Made by a program: the position numbers and the translations under genes. Source: Hespellia sp. (GTDB taxonomy: Bacteria > Bacillota > Clostridia > Lachnospirales > Lachnospiraceae). From it: 64,000 nt of DNA. The notes under the pieces were generated by a model, which was given only the letters and a program-made list of their open reading frames with translations, was not told the DNA's origin and did no database searches. The stretch covers positions 23,253 to 87,252 of the forward strand of contig JAAVXR010000016.1 of assembly GCA_022790755.1 (NCBI GenBank), written 5' to 3'. Of this stretch, positions 11,275 to 61,296 are shown in pieces (position 1 is the stretch's first letter; the number at the start of each line of letters is the position of its first letter).

Positions 11275-11507
11275 GCAAATTGCACAAATTGTATTCGGTT
11301 TTGTTCCGGGTTTCGAATCTAAGAGGCTCTAAATGTTCTGGTGGAAGATATTATAGTACGGACGCAACCGCCTTCAATGCGCCGTCCGTGGCGCAGATCG
11401 GGCTTTCGCCGGCGTCCGTGCCGGCGAATTGCTGAGGACTGGCAGAACATTAAGAGTCTCTAAGATTCTTCACAGTCACCAAACCGAATACAATTTGTGC
11501 AATTTGC
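11275..11507. repeat. Long imperfect palindrome 1 (233 bp)
   Basis: The outer arms, about 66 bases each, are complementary over nearly their whole length: GCAAATTGCACAAATTG at 11275 against CAATTTGTGCAATTTGC ending at 11507, and further in GAATCTAAGAGGCTCT against AGAGTCTCTAAGATTC. The interior holds two GC-rich hairpins with the same six-base loop GTCCGT (GCGCC/GGCGC near 11371 and GCCGGC/GCCGGC near 11413), and ACGGAC upstream could pair with either loop. No credible gene is inside; short open frames here are by-products of the palindrome. It could be a small non-autonomous element or a large structured RNA. Confidence 0.8.
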
Positions 11508-29048: not shown

Positions 29049-29204
29049 CTCTTATTCAGAGCAGTGGAGATACATAGGATCTGAGAAGCTGCGGCAACCC
29101 CTTTGCAGGAAGGTGCTAACCTGAGCGAGTGAATCGAACAATAAGAGGATTGGTTTATTTCAAAGATAAAGCAGTCCGCTTTGAGTGGACTGCTTTTTGT
29201 TTTG
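29049..29204 (+). promoter_or_regulatory. SAM-I (S-box) riboswitch
   Basis: The aptamer spans 29049-29147: stem P1 is CTCTTATT/AATAAGAG, and the core segments GCGGCAACC and AAGGTGCTAACCTG match the S-box consensus. The expression platform is the terminator AAAGCAGTCC/GGACTGCTTT plus T run at 29168-29204. When S-adenosylmethionine binds, P1 forms and the terminator stops transcription before metK. Confidence 0.95.
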
Positions 29205-56270: not shown

Positions 56271-59200
56271 TTAACGTTTCTTTTTATTCAAAATTCCGAC
56301 TACTACGATCAGGCAAATAACAATCGCCGCGATCCATGGCAGGAAGGACATGGGGTCCCCAGTTTTTGGCAAGACAGATGAAACAATATCACTGGTATTC
56401 TTATTATCGCTCTTGGCATCGGAATCTTTTGTAGTGGTAGTGTTGTCTTTCGTTGGATCGTTTTGGGGGTTGATATTCTTATTTTTGTCATCGTCTGGAT
56501 TCTTTTTATTTTGTTCTTGATCTTTTTCATTATCTGGATCAGTACTATCTGGATTGCCACCTTGAGCAAGATCTTTCCATGCGATTCCAATCGGGGATGT
56601 ACCCATCACCGTGAATTGAAGGCCTTCGTCTACTCTGGTGACAACCGGTTCTTCTATCTGCCCGGGTTCTGTGTGAAGCCTTTCGGATGAGGCAGTAAAC
56701 ATATGAGCCGCGATGAAATCATGAGTATCCTTTCCAGTACCTTCTGGGTATGGTATTACGATTGTGATGCCTTCGTCCGGGAAATTATCGACGGTTGCAT
56801 CTTCCCAGTTTTCGCCGTCAAGGCTAATCTGCAATGTAATGTCATAGAAGGCCATATTCAAATATGTGTATCCAGGGTGTTGTGTAAGTACTTTCGTCAG
56901 TTCCGCCCGAATCTTGTCGGTGCTATTAAATGTTTCATTATCCTTCAAGGATTCCGGAACTTCTGGAATTCCATCCTGAATCGTTAGCTTTGACTGAATA
57001 TCTGCCGCGGTTACTTCGGAGAATTCTGCTGAAACAATCTCACTGTCATTCAAATCATCTCTGGTAGCGATTGCCTTAACGGTTGCGGCAGTATCAATAG
57101 TGAAAGCATCTGTATATTCTGTACTTGAATTTGATGGGTCCGAACCGTCTGTTGTATAATAAATTTTAACGCCTTCTGTTGGACAGGTAATCGTGATTCT
57201 CTGGCTTCCTATGAACTTTCCACCATCCGGAGAAATGACAGGAGTCTCTGCAGTCAATTTCGGTGAGGTCTCTGTGCTGGCTGTAACCGGACTGTCATAG
57301 TGTGTATCATCTTCCGGGAACTTGGCATATCCGGTATACTGGGTGTTCGGCGCGCAGTCTGTCTTTGTATTTTCTTCAGAGAAGTTCTTGTTGTCAAAAC
57401 TATATACCGCACCTTTTATTTTCGGGATCGTGGCAGTGAACGTGCCATCTCCGTTTGCTGTAAATTCCAGAGTGAAATCAGCGGGAGCTTTTTGCTCCAG
57501 TTTCGGCATAGTTATCTTGCCGGTGCTGCCAATCTCGCTTTCATTGACGTTTTTATTGCCTTTTGCGCGAGCCTCGAATGTGTAGACTTTTCCTGGTTCG
57601 AGATTTCGGAAGCTGTCGCTATCCTGCCAGGAAGAATCTCCTACTGTCCGGTATTCATAATCGACGCCGGGAGCCTTATTGCTGATGATTACAGTAAAGT
57701 TAAAGCCAGTACCTTTATCATTTACTTTCGGGCTTCCGCCGAGAATTGGCTTCGCTGGATTCGCTTTTGTAATAGCTGTTTTATCAGTTAAGGATACATT
57801 ATCTTTTGGAGAGACAATGTAATTCCCTGCCTTGTCTCCGGTTAATGGAACTTCCTTTATAGAAACAGAAGTGTAATCTTCACCGACGTTTGCAGAACTC
57901 ACATCGCCGGTTAGGTTAGAGGTATCAACTTGGACGTGGTCTTTGTCATCCAAAACAAAATCATTTTCGTCTAATTTTACATCTGTTAATTTAACGGCAG
58001 GTGTCCCATCAAATTCTTTGCTGCTTTCGGCGGTTGCTTCCAGAATCGTCAACGGCCGCTTTTCAATCTCAAGTTCTCCTTCTGCAGAACCTTGATAGTT
58101 CCCTTGTCCCTCCACGGTTACGGTGATTGTACCTGCGTTTATTAAATCGCCAGGGGAATAAAATACGTTGTAGTTCGAGGGATCAAGAACCGCATCATTT
58201 AAAAATACGGCGATCGTCGGGCTTTTTTTATTGCCGTCATAAACTGCATCGCTAAGTTCGGCTTTAACAGTTGCATTCTCGATTGAAGTCGGGATAATGG
58301 TGAAAGAAGATTCAATCGTCCCTGTGTAGTTTCCTATGCCTTCAATAGTAACCTTGATAGGGTCAGGCTGTACCTCAATGAGATCTCCATCACACTTTAC
58401 GGTAAAATCTTTATCTTGAACTAATGGTGTATCACCATCACTTAACTGAATATCTGGTTCTACTTCCTCGCCGGTATAGTTTTCATTGGCGATTGGAGTG
58501 AGCATGGATTCGGAAAGTGGTTTTGGGGATACCGTAGCGTTTTTTTCAAATCCATCGTAACCAGGTTTTGAAAAAGCTATAACATATGAGCCAGCATTAA
58601 CAATTGTACCGTTCGTATCATTTCCGTCTTGTGTAATTTTAACGTCCCAACTGGTATCTATCGTAAATCCATCTCTTTCCGTTCTCCAATGGATAATATC
58701 TCCAACCAAATCAGAACCGTTGTATACAGCGTCGGTAATTTGGATATCATCAGGGGTTAAGGCCACTGTTTTTTGTGACTGTGAAAGATTAATCTGGCCT
58801 TGATCCACTAAAATCGCGTTATTGGCGTTGACAAGAGTTCCCGCACCACCAATTATACCGGCAACATTTAAGGTCTTCTTTAGAGTAAGTGAACTTCCAG
58901 CGGCGAGATTTATGGTTTGATCAGCATCTAATTTTCCGTTATTATTTGGATCATGCCATGTTGCAGTTCCATACACATTAAATGTTTTCCCATTTTGAAT
59001 GATACCGTTGAATCTTCTAATATTTTCGGCTGGAGGGATGTCTCCGTTGGCGGTAATCACAACATTTTCTCCTAAACCGGAAGAAAGAGATTCACATTTG
59101 ATACTGTTTCCCTGTTTCCCTGATACTGTTATGCCATCGTCATTTTTGAAACTGTTGGAACCACCGGTAGCAGTTACATTGCCTCCCGAAATTTCAATAT

Positions 59201-60077
59201 TTTTACCGCCTAGTCCAGGACCGCCAGCAGCGTCTGGAACTGGGTTTGAAACATTGCCGCCCGTAGCGCGTACTGTAGTAGCGTCTCCGGAAATCGTGAT
59301 ATCAACATTGCCTTTGCCGGAAGCGCCGCAACCAATGCCGGCTGCCGCATTGGTGGGTTGTGGAAGGGTTGAACAACCTGTAGCTTCCACCACTCCGCCG
59401 GAAATGGCTATGGAACCGCCATCTCCCATGGCGCCACACCCAATACCAGGAGCACCATTCACACCGCCGGTAGCGGTTACGTTACCATTTTCAATGGTAA
59501 TATTTCCTGCACTACCTGTTTCGCATCCGCCGATACCGGCGCCTGTAGTGCCTCCTTTTGCATTAATCGTACCACTTTTGATGGTGATGGAACCAGCGTT
59601 GATTTCTTTCACAGTTCCACGATTTCCACCGATACCAGCAGCATTATTAGATGTAACATCTAAACGGTTTCCAGGACTGCTTCCCTGGCTGGCGATGTTT
59701 AAGGTGGCCCCCTGTGGCACGAAAATTCCCGGACTATTTTCGCAGGTCAGTTGATTGGTTCCGGACAGCGTCATATTAACGGTTGCGCCAGCCTGAATAG
59801 AAATCGGGCTGTCATTGGTAGATTGTATGATCGTGCCCTCCAATGTTATATCATGGACGCCATCAATTACATTGATTGTATTCGTACTATTGCCTCTAAC
59901 AATGTGTCCCGGGCAGGTATCGTTACCATTTTTTTTCTCTTCTTCCCCTGATATAGTGGCGTTACCGTGTGTGATATCTATTATCTCGGCCGCCCCCACA
60001 GTCAAAGGCACAAACATTGCAGTGGTGAGCGCCGCTGCAATCAATGGCACTAATTTACGTTTCCTTCTCTGAATCAT
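56271..60077 (-). CDS. Large LPKTG-anchored surface protein
   Basis: A 1268-residue exported protein. A signal peptide (residues 1 to about 30, ending near TVGAA) is followed by a Gly/Asn/Thr-rich, beta-helix-like region (about 30-400) full of short repeats such as ISGGNVTATGG and AGIGCGA, then several YDG- and MBG-like repeats (TYDGN/VYNGSD, IPTSIENATV), a chitobiase C-terminal-like repeat (TDGSDPSNSSTEYT), an acidic Asn/Asp/Lys linker and the sorting signal LPKTG at 1236-1240 with a hydrophobic helix and KKKR tail. A sortase would link it to peptidoglycan. It probably acts as an adhesin or glycan-binding protein. The start at 60077 has GGAAGG seven bases upstream. Confidence 0.88.
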   Translation of the reverse strand: MIQRRKRKLVPLIAAALTTAMFVPLTVGAAEIIDITHGNATISGEEEKKNGNDTCPGHIVRGNSTNTINVIDGVHDITLEGTIIQSTNDSPISIQAGATVNMTLSGTNQLTCENSPGIFVPQGATLNIASQGSSPGNRLDVTSNNAAGIGGNRGTVKEINAGSITIKSGTINAKGGTTGAGIGGCETGSAGNITIENGNVTATGGVNGAPGIGCGAMGDGGSIAISGGVVEATGCSTLPQPTNAAAGIGCGASGKGNVDITISGDATTVRATGGNVSNPVPDAAGGPGLGGKNIEISGGNVTATGGSNSFKNDDGITVSGKQGNSIKCESLSSGLGENVVITANGDIPPAENIRRFNGIIQNGKTFNVYGTATWHDPNNNGKLDADQTINLAAGSSLTLKKTLNVAGIIGGAGTLVNANNAILVDQGQINLSQSQKTVALTPDDIQITDAVYNGSDLVGDIIHWRTERDGFTIDTSWDVKITQDGNDTNGTIVNAGSYVIAFSKPGYDGFEKNATVSPKPLSESMLTPIANENYTGEEVEPDIQLSDGDTPLVQDKDFTVKCDGDLIEVQPDPIKVTIEGIGNYTGTIESSFTIIPTSIENATVKAELSDAVYDGNKKSPTIAVFLNDAVLDPSNYNVFYSPGDLINAGTITVTVEGQGNYQGSAEGELEIEKRPLTILEATAESSKEFDGTPAVKLTDVKLDENDFVLDDKDHVQVDTSNLTGDVSSANVGEDYTSVSIKEVPLTGDKAGNYIVSPKDNVSLTDKTAITKANPAKPILGGSPKVNDKGTGFNFTVIISNKAPGVDYEYRTVGDSSWQDSDSFRNLEPGKVYTFEARAKGNKNVNESEIGSTGKITMPKLEQKAPADFTLEFTANGDGTFTATIPKIKGAVYSFDNKNFSEENTKTDCAPNTQYTGYAKFPEDDTHYDSPVTASTETSPKLTAETPVISPDGGKFIGSQRITITCPTEGVKIYYTTDGSDPSNSSTEYTDAFTIDTAATVKAIATRDDLNDSEIVSAEFSEVTAADIQSKLTIQDGIPEVPESLKDNETFNSTDKIRAELTKVLTQHPGYTYLNMAFYDITLQISLDGENWEDATVDNFPDEGITIVIPYPEGTGKDTHDFIAAHMFTASSERLHTEPGQIEEPVVTRVDEGLQFTVMGTSPIGIAWKDLAQGGNPDSTDPDNEKDQEQNKKNPDDDKNKNINPQNDPTKDNTTTTKDSDAKSDNKNTSDIVSSVLPKTGDPMSFLPWIAAIVICLIVVVGILNKKKR

Positions 60078-60150
60078 AAACATCCCTTCCTTTGATAATA
60101 TATTGAATAGATTTTTATATTACGAAATAGAATCTGACTCGACAGATCTG

Positions 60151-60231
60151 TTTCTGCAAACAATTCGCCGATTATCTGGGGTGTTTGCAGAAAGATACAC
60201 TTAACTATTTGCAGAAAGATACACTTAACTA
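60151..60231. repeat. Inverted and tandem repeats upstream of the surface protein gene
   Basis: TTTCTGCAAACA (60151-60162) and TGTTTGCAGAAA (60182-60193) form an inverted repeat. TTTGCAGAAAGATACACTTA-type units of 24 bases occur twice in a row (60184-60207 and 60208-60231), sharing bases with the second arm. No gene lies in 60084-60545; the rest is AT-rich, with a possible promoter TTGCTT-18-TACAAT at 60424 for the next gene. Confidence 0.75.
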
Positions 60232-60545
60232 TAAGTATACTTTATTACCCTGAGAAATTCAATAATTTTCAGTTTTTCCTGTCTGGCAGATTGATGTAGA
60301 AAATGATATCTACATATATAGTATACAGTCTGAAAATAACCGACACTTATATATATACATCGTCACATTTTTGCTTAAGATAACAGTGGAAAATGGGATG
60401 TTTTAAAGAAAATCAGAAATAAGTTGCTTGAAGCGAGTAGGCTAAGGTACAATGAAAAAAGCAAGTATTTATTGGTTATCATAAAATGTGCTGACTGTGA
60501 ATGAAATAGAAATTTGGAGTTCGGAAGGGGAAAGTAGGTACATAG

Positions 60546-60977: not shown

Positions 60978-61006
60978 TAGAAACGCGTCAAACAATATGT
61001 TACAAT
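60978..61006 (+). promoter_or_regulatory. Possible promoter of the small membrane peptide
   Basis: TAGAAA (60978-60983), 17 bases and TACAAT (61001-61006). The leader would contain CCCG-GCAA-CGGG, a GNRA tetraloop hairpin that runs into the ribosome site. Confidence 0.4.
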
Positions 61007-61051
61007 TCGTATGTTGCTCACCGATACCCGGCAACGGGAGGAGGTGATTTC

Positions 61052-61150
61052 ATGTCAGTACTTATATCTTTTTTAATTGCTGTCGCGGCTGGTGTGGCTT
61101 GCCACTACATCATCAAATGGTTAGACAGCAATGACAAGAGCAACAAATAG
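61052..61150 (+). CDS. 32-residue membrane peptide, candidate type I toxin
   Basis: Sequence pattern: a single hydrophobic helix (MSVLISFLIAVAAGVACHYI) followed by a charged tail (KWLDSNDKSNK). This is the shape of type I toxins such as Fst and TxpA, which insert in the membrane. The ribosome site, GGGAGGAGGTGAT, is almost a perfect anti-16S match eight bases before the ATG. A strong sigma-A promoter on the opposite strand, 111 bases beyond the stop, would make an RNA antisense to its 3' end. I know similar short peptides from Lachnospiraceae but cannot name a family with certainty. An ordinary small membrane protein is the alternative. Confidence 0.6.
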   Translation: MSVLISFLIAVAAGVACHYIIKWLDSNDKSNK

Positions 61151-61175
61151 CCTACTGGGTGCTTTGCCAGTATAA

Positions 61176-61261
61176 ACGAAAAGAAGAATCCCTCGACTGT
61201 GTTGCGCCACGGTTGAGGGATTCGTTCTTTGATTTCATGTAGTACTCATATCTATTTGCCT
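61176..61261 (-). ncRNA. Candidate antisense RNA (antitoxin) overlapping the peptide mRNA 3' end
   Basis: Predicted from the promoter at 61296-61268, this RNA of about 85 bases would start near 61261 and end at the stem GAATCCCTC/GAGGGATTC (61223-61186) followed by TTCTTCTTTT on the minus strand. The same stem could end the peptide mRNA on the plus strand, so both RNAs would be complementary over it. This arrangement is known from 3'-overlapping type I systems such as txpA/RatA. Confidence 0.5.
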
Positions 61262-61267
61262 GTTGGC

Positions 61268-61296
61268 ATTATAGCATATGCAGAAATCGTTTTCAA
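61268..61296 (-). promoter_or_regulatory. Promoter for the antisense RNA
   Basis: On the minus strand TTGAAA (61296-61291), 17 bases and TATAAT (61273-61268). No open frame follows it on the minus strand, which supports an RNA product. The 61151-61457 stretch has no gene other than these signals and the tiny frame at 61430. Confidence 0.7.

Follow-up and report, generated by a model that had tools for sequence, protein, structure and literature searches.

The tiny, unannotated reading frame at 61052-61150 on the plus strand raises the question of whether this locus is a type I toxin-antitoxin system and, if so, of which family. It was analyzed within a stretch of 64,000 nucleotides from Hespellia sp., here called the window, whose host is a gut-type bacterium (Lachnospiraceae). 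The initial annotation had proposed a type I locus composed of a 32-residue membrane peptide and a convergent antisense RNA, arranged in the manner of txpA/RatA or fst. Our analysis supports the proposal and narrows the family to par/Fst: the locus is very probably a par-type (Fst family) type I toxin-antitoxin system with a predicted toxin, as judged from its sequence and from that of its relatives.

The frame encodes MSVLISFLIAVAAGVACHYIIKWLDSNDKSNK, a predicted toxin of 32 residues, in which a single hydrophobic helix is followed by KWLD and a charged tail; helix and tail had been described in the initial annotation and were found as stated. These properties correspond to those of par-type peptides, which have 25-40 amino acids, one hydrophobic helix, a conserved Trp at the helix end and a charged C-terminal tail. 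In the alignments of the window peptide with its relatives (A1/A2), residues K22, W23 and D25 are invariant in 35/35 sequences. For the second half of the frame in related loci, the pN/pS ratio was 0.11 in frame versus 0.80 and 0.90 off-frame; the pairwise counts were taken over related sequences and are non-independent, and the contrast between frames is large. These substitution counts show coding constraint (purifying selection) on the frame across the peptide family.

The most informative feature of the locus, overlooked in the initial annotation, is a direct repeat of 28-29 bases at positions 61045-61073 and 61230-61257 of the plus strand. The first copy (DRa-like), TGATTTCATGTCAGTACTTATATCTTTTT, spans the tail of the Shine-Dalgarno sequence, the start codon and the first codons of the toxin, and the second copy (DRb-like), TGATTTCATGTAGTACTCATATCTATTT, is flanked by the terminator and the antisense promoter. 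Since the copies lie on the toxin start and on the antisense 5' end, the antisense RNA would be complementary to the toxin start site, and the duplex predicted for the antisense repeat with the start region of the window mRNA has an energy of -43.2 kcal/mol. The first copy lies at -7 and the second at stop+79, with a match score of 44. The same script, applied to the fst locus of pTEF1 (L130), gave a score of 42, placing DRa at -10 and DRb at stop+76, and 9/10 Fst-family plasmid loci showed the same repeat geometry. Direct repeats as in par-type systems, which would allow the two RNAs to pair at the toxin start as well, are therefore found in the window and in the Fst-locus positive controls.

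The significance of the repeat was evaluated by comparing cognate and non-cognate pairings, the latter being the start region of one locus against the 3' region of another. A repeat match to the locus's own partner (score of at least 30) was found in 85% of 114 related loci versus 1.7% of 12,856 non-cognate pairings. A held-out set of 93 loci, obtained with a DNA pattern for [HY]YICKWLD and having few species in common with the first set, gave 78% versus 1.3%. The predicted duplex energy in the related loci was -41.5 kcal/mol for cognate pairs versus -24.1 kcal/mol for non-cognate pairs. In both sets the position of the repeat is stable, with medians of -8 from the start codon and 67-72 bases past the stop. 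The repeat sequences themselves differ between loci and match within each locus, as would be expected if the constraint were RNA-RNA pairing. These locus-specific repeats offer antisense pairs, both matched and mismatched, that could be used directly to study specificity.

The promoters of the two predicted RNAs converge. For the toxin mRNA, the sequence TAGAAA-17-TACAAT with an extended -10 (TG) was identified at 60978-61006 of the plus strand (9/12 in the consensus scan). On the minus strand, the promoter TTGAAA-17-TATAAT proposed in the initial annotation was confirmed at 61296-61268, with a TG extension and a score of 11/12. It is important to mention that promoter-like sites as such are about as frequent here as expected by chance (5 found versus 3.5 expected from shuffled sequences), so the case for the promoters rests on their conservation. 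A minus-strand -10 element just after the second repeat was present in 86/97 related loci with the repeat versus 28/97 in a control window, and in the held-out set in 67/73 versus 19/73; the opposite promoter is hence conserved together with the peptide, which the initial annotation had suggested checking. A plus-strand -10 element at about -53 was likewise observed in 90/96 related loci (32 in the control window) and in 64/73 of the held-out loci (25 in the control window).

From these promoters and the terminator, two transcripts with inferred ends are predicted. The toxin mRNA (RNA I-like) would extend over 61013-61233 of the plus strand, a region that also matches Rfam RF02442, and the antisense RNA (RNA II-like), of about 85 nt, over 61176-61261 of the minus strand. 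Both fold better than shuffled sequences, with z scores of -5.33 for 61013-61232 and -4.46 for 61174-61261. The stem at 61186-61223, which had been described as common to both transcripts, was verified as a bidirectional terminator stem of 16 bp by sequence scan and by folding in related loci; the region from the stop codon to the second repeat has a folding energy of -12 kcal/mol or lower in 97/97 and 73/73 of the related loci with the repeat in the two sets. Convergent promoters and a shared bidirectional intrinsic terminator, both characteristic of par-type systems, can accordingly be read from the sequence. The YUNR U-turn is absent from the terminator loop of the toxin mRNA (UUGCGC). This motif is present in par-pAD1 and not in all of its homologs (PMC7472228), and is therefore not a defining par feature.

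The strong ribosome-binding site and the GCAA hairpin before it, both noticed in the initial annotation, are present upstream of the frame. The Shine-Dalgarno sequence AGGAGGTG is read directly at 61039-61046 (+), and adjoining it at 61027-61038 (+), according to sequence and RNA fold, is the leader hairpin CCCG-GCAA-CGGG, a candidate 5'-SL. A Shine-Dalgarno match of at least 5/6 was found in 94% of the related loci with the repeat. In the relatives, loop-anchored leader stems covary, with 158 paired cells versus 124 +/- 6.5 (0/2000 shuffles), and 18 complete stems were counted versus 5.8 in shuffles. In the related loci, leader hairpins in general were no commoner than chance, and the same held for sequestration of the Shine-Dalgarno sequence by upstream anti-Shine-Dalgarno pairing. 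For these reasons we make no claim of sequestration by the leader, which is possible, and the covariation of the hairpin applies to a subset of the relatives.

On the basis of this arrangement we propose the following mechanism. A plus-strand mRNA of about 220 nt would encode the 32-residue single-helix membrane peptide, and a minus-strand RNA of about 85 nt would start just downstream of the second copy of the start-codon sequence and run through the shared terminator. The antisense RNA would pair with the mRNA at two places, namely the terminator stem-loop and, by means of the repeats, the Shine-Dalgarno sequence together with the start codon and the first few codons of the toxin. Where the repeats pair, ribosomes would be kept from binding, and the mRNA would stay untranslated. 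If the antisense RNA were lost or in short supply, translation of the mRNA, the more stable of the two RNAs, would follow, and the peptide would harm the cell membrane or a process taking place there. For this locus we infer transcription, the order of pairing, the relative stability of the RNAs, the toxicity of the peptide and its biological role; on plasmids, such loci probably serve maintenance.

The system that most resembles the window locus is par of pAD1 from Enterococcus faecalis, the Fst plasmid-addiction system, which we read from pTEF1. It is characterized by a 33-amino-acid toxin, convergent promoters, a shared bidirectional terminator, the direct repeats DRa and DRb, and a 5' stem-loop at the Shine-Dalgarno sequence (Weaver review, PMC7472228). 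The window locus shares with it the length of the peptide, the helix followed by (W)LD and a charged tail, the convergent promoters, the shared terminator, the placement of DRa and DRb and, as a candidate, the hairpin by the Shine-Dalgarno sequence. In contrast to par of pAD1, the window locus shows no BLASTP similarity, a helix without Pro, no match to the Fst models PF13955 and NF033608, and a terminator loop without YUNR. The majority of the Fst superfamily carries a P/D/S/T-XXXG motif, and the Pro and Gly of PXXXG are essential in Fst-pAD1 (PMC7472228). This motif is absent from the window peptide, whose helix has AVAAG (AXXXG) instead of the PXXXG needed for Fst toxicity. In relatives, the first residue at this position is mostly S or A and the last is G, S, E, N or D, so that many of them are without the Gly.

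The relationship to Fst was also examined with profiles and curated models. In a profile-profile comparison, the family of this peptide (A2) aligned end to end with Fst (A3), with a probability of 96.2% and a score of 37.6, which lies above those of 100 core-column shuffles (maximum 26.3) and of 100 helix-only shuffles in which WLD was kept (maximum 33.8). It is only through profile comparison that the window peptide family is linked, as a putative remote homolog, to Fst. The two Fst models gave weak matches or none for the relatives. PF13955 found none of these loci over 98 related genomes, NF033608 gave no match when searched in the order of genome G767, and BLASTP with the Fst peptide found nothing. 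Additionally, no entry of Pfam, NCBIfam or PHROGs matched the window peptide or 26 relatives above its curated cut-off, and a profile search of the PDB returned no relative of the peptide. The initial annotation had expected the locus to be invisible to annotation tools. This largely holds, since Pfam and NCBIfam gave no match and Rfam gave only a full-length match below the threshold.

In this match, RF02442 (SpF66) aligns over its full length (1-239/239) to 61013-61233 with 19 bits and an E-value of 0.019, below its gathering score of 42. On plasmid relatives the same model scores above the gathering score, with 114.9 bits for L073 (Streptococcus pneumoniae pSpnP1) and 50.9 bits for L078 (Enterococcus faecium). 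F66, for which srn502 and spd_sr109 are synonyms, was detected in S. pneumoniae by sequencing and Northern blot (PMC3395615). Together with the antisense RNA Srf-27 it has been predicted to form an Fst-like type I toxin-antitoxin system, in tandem with a second copy, and both RNAs of the homologous pneumococcal loci were detected by RNA-seq and Northern blot (PMC9812572). The tandem neighbor srn503/spd_sr111 is annotated as Fst family in PneumoBrowse (PMC12323649). Pneumococcal SpF66 resembles the window locus in the CKWLD coding core of the Rfam consensus and in the repeat layout, which is the same in the pSpnP1 copy; it differs in organism and has unrelated repeat sequences. Since SpF66 has already been published as an Fst-like system with both RNAs, the mechanism class is known and the window locus is an addition to it. 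When RF02442, RF02848 and RF02844 were run on L073, L078 and L130-L135, SpF66 and RefB11 fell on the toxin mRNAs of par-type loci, and RefA9 on their antitoxin RNA. The Rfam 'sRNA' labels of these three entries appear misleading; the matches suggest that none of them is a regulatory sRNA, SpF66 and the E. faecalis entry RefB11 being mRNAs of toxins and RefA9, also from E. faecalis, an RNA antitoxin.

Relatives of the peptide were found in 38/145 related genomes (E<=0.1), in 86/392 genomes of the order (E<=0.001) and in 17/399 genomes over the phylum (E<=1e-4). They were also found in 266 plasmid records (E<=10, weak matches included), 160 of them conjugative and several only 4-7 kb in size, and, by an exact-pattern scan, in 36 viral contigs. 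The only other genome of the genus that was examined had no relative and no matching DNA. Among the matches listed in a pattern scan of named genomes were Lachnospiraceae, Oscillospiraceae, Veillonella, Selenomonas, Erysipelotrichaceae, Aerococcus and Enterococcus. By these sequence searches, hundreds of predicted and unannotated relatives exist on chromosomes, plasmids and phages across Bacillota, a clade that is overlooked by protein annotation. An addiction-module class invisible to protein-family models would thus be common in this phylum, including on large conjugative plasmids of E. faecium and on plasmids of 4-7 kb with hardly any other content. Head-to-tail arrays of 3-4 loci, about 400-600 bases apart and with a direct repeat of its own in each copy, were observed at L089 1500-2780 and L085 456-1600 (G641:C23, G767:C28), and also at G758:C4 36243-37062.

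We tentatively suggest, with somewhat less than even confidence, that the KWLD peptides may be a toxin clade in their own right among par-type systems, found widely across Bacillota, almost always overlooked by annotation pipelines and present in some genomes as several head-to-tail copies with their own repeats. Its range would comprise Lachnospiraceae, Oscillospiraceae, Erysipelotrichaceae, the diderm Negativicutes (Veillonella, Selenomonas) and, on plasmids, lactic acid bacteria. Because these peptides are without the Pro, and often the Gly, thought to be essential in Fst, they may act on a different target. Fst-like sequences of Clostridium bolteae and C. asparagiforme, both of the same bacterial family as the window host (Lachnospiraceae), are known by citation alone, from an earlier in silico search to which PMC6563280 refers, and may belong to the clade of the window peptide.

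Two partial copies of the locus are found elsewhere in the same genome, on contigs C19 and C25. The C19 copy (L145 1501-1694) has lost the leader and the 5' half of the toxin gene, and has kept the terminator, the second repeat and the antisense -10 element, so that it has the form of an orphan antitoxin. That the toxin was lost and the antisense unit retained fits a toxic peptide, as a single and anecdotal case. The C25 copy (L148, minus strand, about 960-1060) retains only the C-terminal codons of the toxin (KWLDSDDKSNN) and some 3' sequence, and adjoins what reads like the start of a nitroreductase gene.

Several other explanations of the locus were considered. The same RNA mechanism could limit the synthesis of a small, non-toxic membrane protein, for instance a stress peptide or one that modulates a membrane enzyme. 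The replacement in this family of the Pro and Gly essential in Fst-pAD1 would agree with such a function, as would the finding that in pneumococcal relatives the toxin mRNA exceeds the antitoxin RNA during normal growth (PMC9812572). We nevertheless consider it unlikely, because the frequent presence of relatives on small or conjugative plasmids and viral contigs, their multiplication in tandem arrays, the specificity of each repeat for its partner, and the genomic remnant in which the antisense part survives and the toxin start does not all fit an addiction module. The locus could also be a domesticated or inactive relic, whose RNAs are perhaps still made and whose peptide is harmless. The two broken copies in the same genome and the AXXXG in place of PXXXG are compatible with this reading, which is nonetheless decidedly improbable given that all parts of the window copy are intact, that purifying selection on the frame is strong across the family, and that close relatives share the AVAAG core together with intact repeats and promoters.

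A system in which the antisense overlap is confined to the 3' part of the mRNA, as in the txpA/RatA or C. difficile types, would have the same convergent layout. In TxpA/RatA of Bacillus subtilis, the antisense RNA pairs with the 3' part of the mRNA only. The txpA/RatA half of the original proposal was rejected on geometry, since the antisense RNA of the window also carries sequence complementary to the toxin start region; the fst half is retained, as the direct repeats and their pTEF1-like geometry agree with it. The type I toxins of C. difficile (NF047374) are, like the window peptide, small and hydrophobic, with convergent antisense RNAs, and several are located on prophages (PMC6563280, PMC7699646). 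They differ in having lysine-rich tails and about 34-53 amino acids, and PMC7699646 mentions no direct repeats. NF047374 (CD_typeI_toxin) gave no match for the window peptide, and the weak matches of relatives, which might favor this type, reach at best 21.3 bits versus a cut-off of 60. With direct repeats at the start codon, which descriptions of those systems do not include, and with the geometry of par-pAD1, such an assignment is very improbable. Finally, a random short frame near a terminator and a fortuitous promoter on the opposite strand might have come together by chance, and promoter-like matches alone are indeed no rarer than in shuffled sequences. This origin is so improbable as to be negligible: every element is conserved in more than 150 loci, including the held-out set, and the comparison of cognate and non-cognate repeats refutes it in both sets of loci. 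With the par-type reading, what began as a conjecture drawn from raw sequence becomes a well-supported predicted pair of toxin and antitoxin RNA, in a gut-type commensal family in which few have been described.

Other features were observed in the window. A predicted secreted surface protein of 1270 residues, with an LPXTG-like sorting signal (SVLPKTGD...) at its end, is encoded at 56271-60083 of the minus strand, and two tandem copies of TTTGCAGAAAGATACACTTAACTA are located upstream of its gene, at about 60180-60232. A TwoAYGGAY RNA was identified at 11308-11475 of the minus strand (Rfam RF01731, 122.8 bits), and a SAM riboswitch at 29049-29147 of the plus strand (Rfam RF00162, 67.6 bits).
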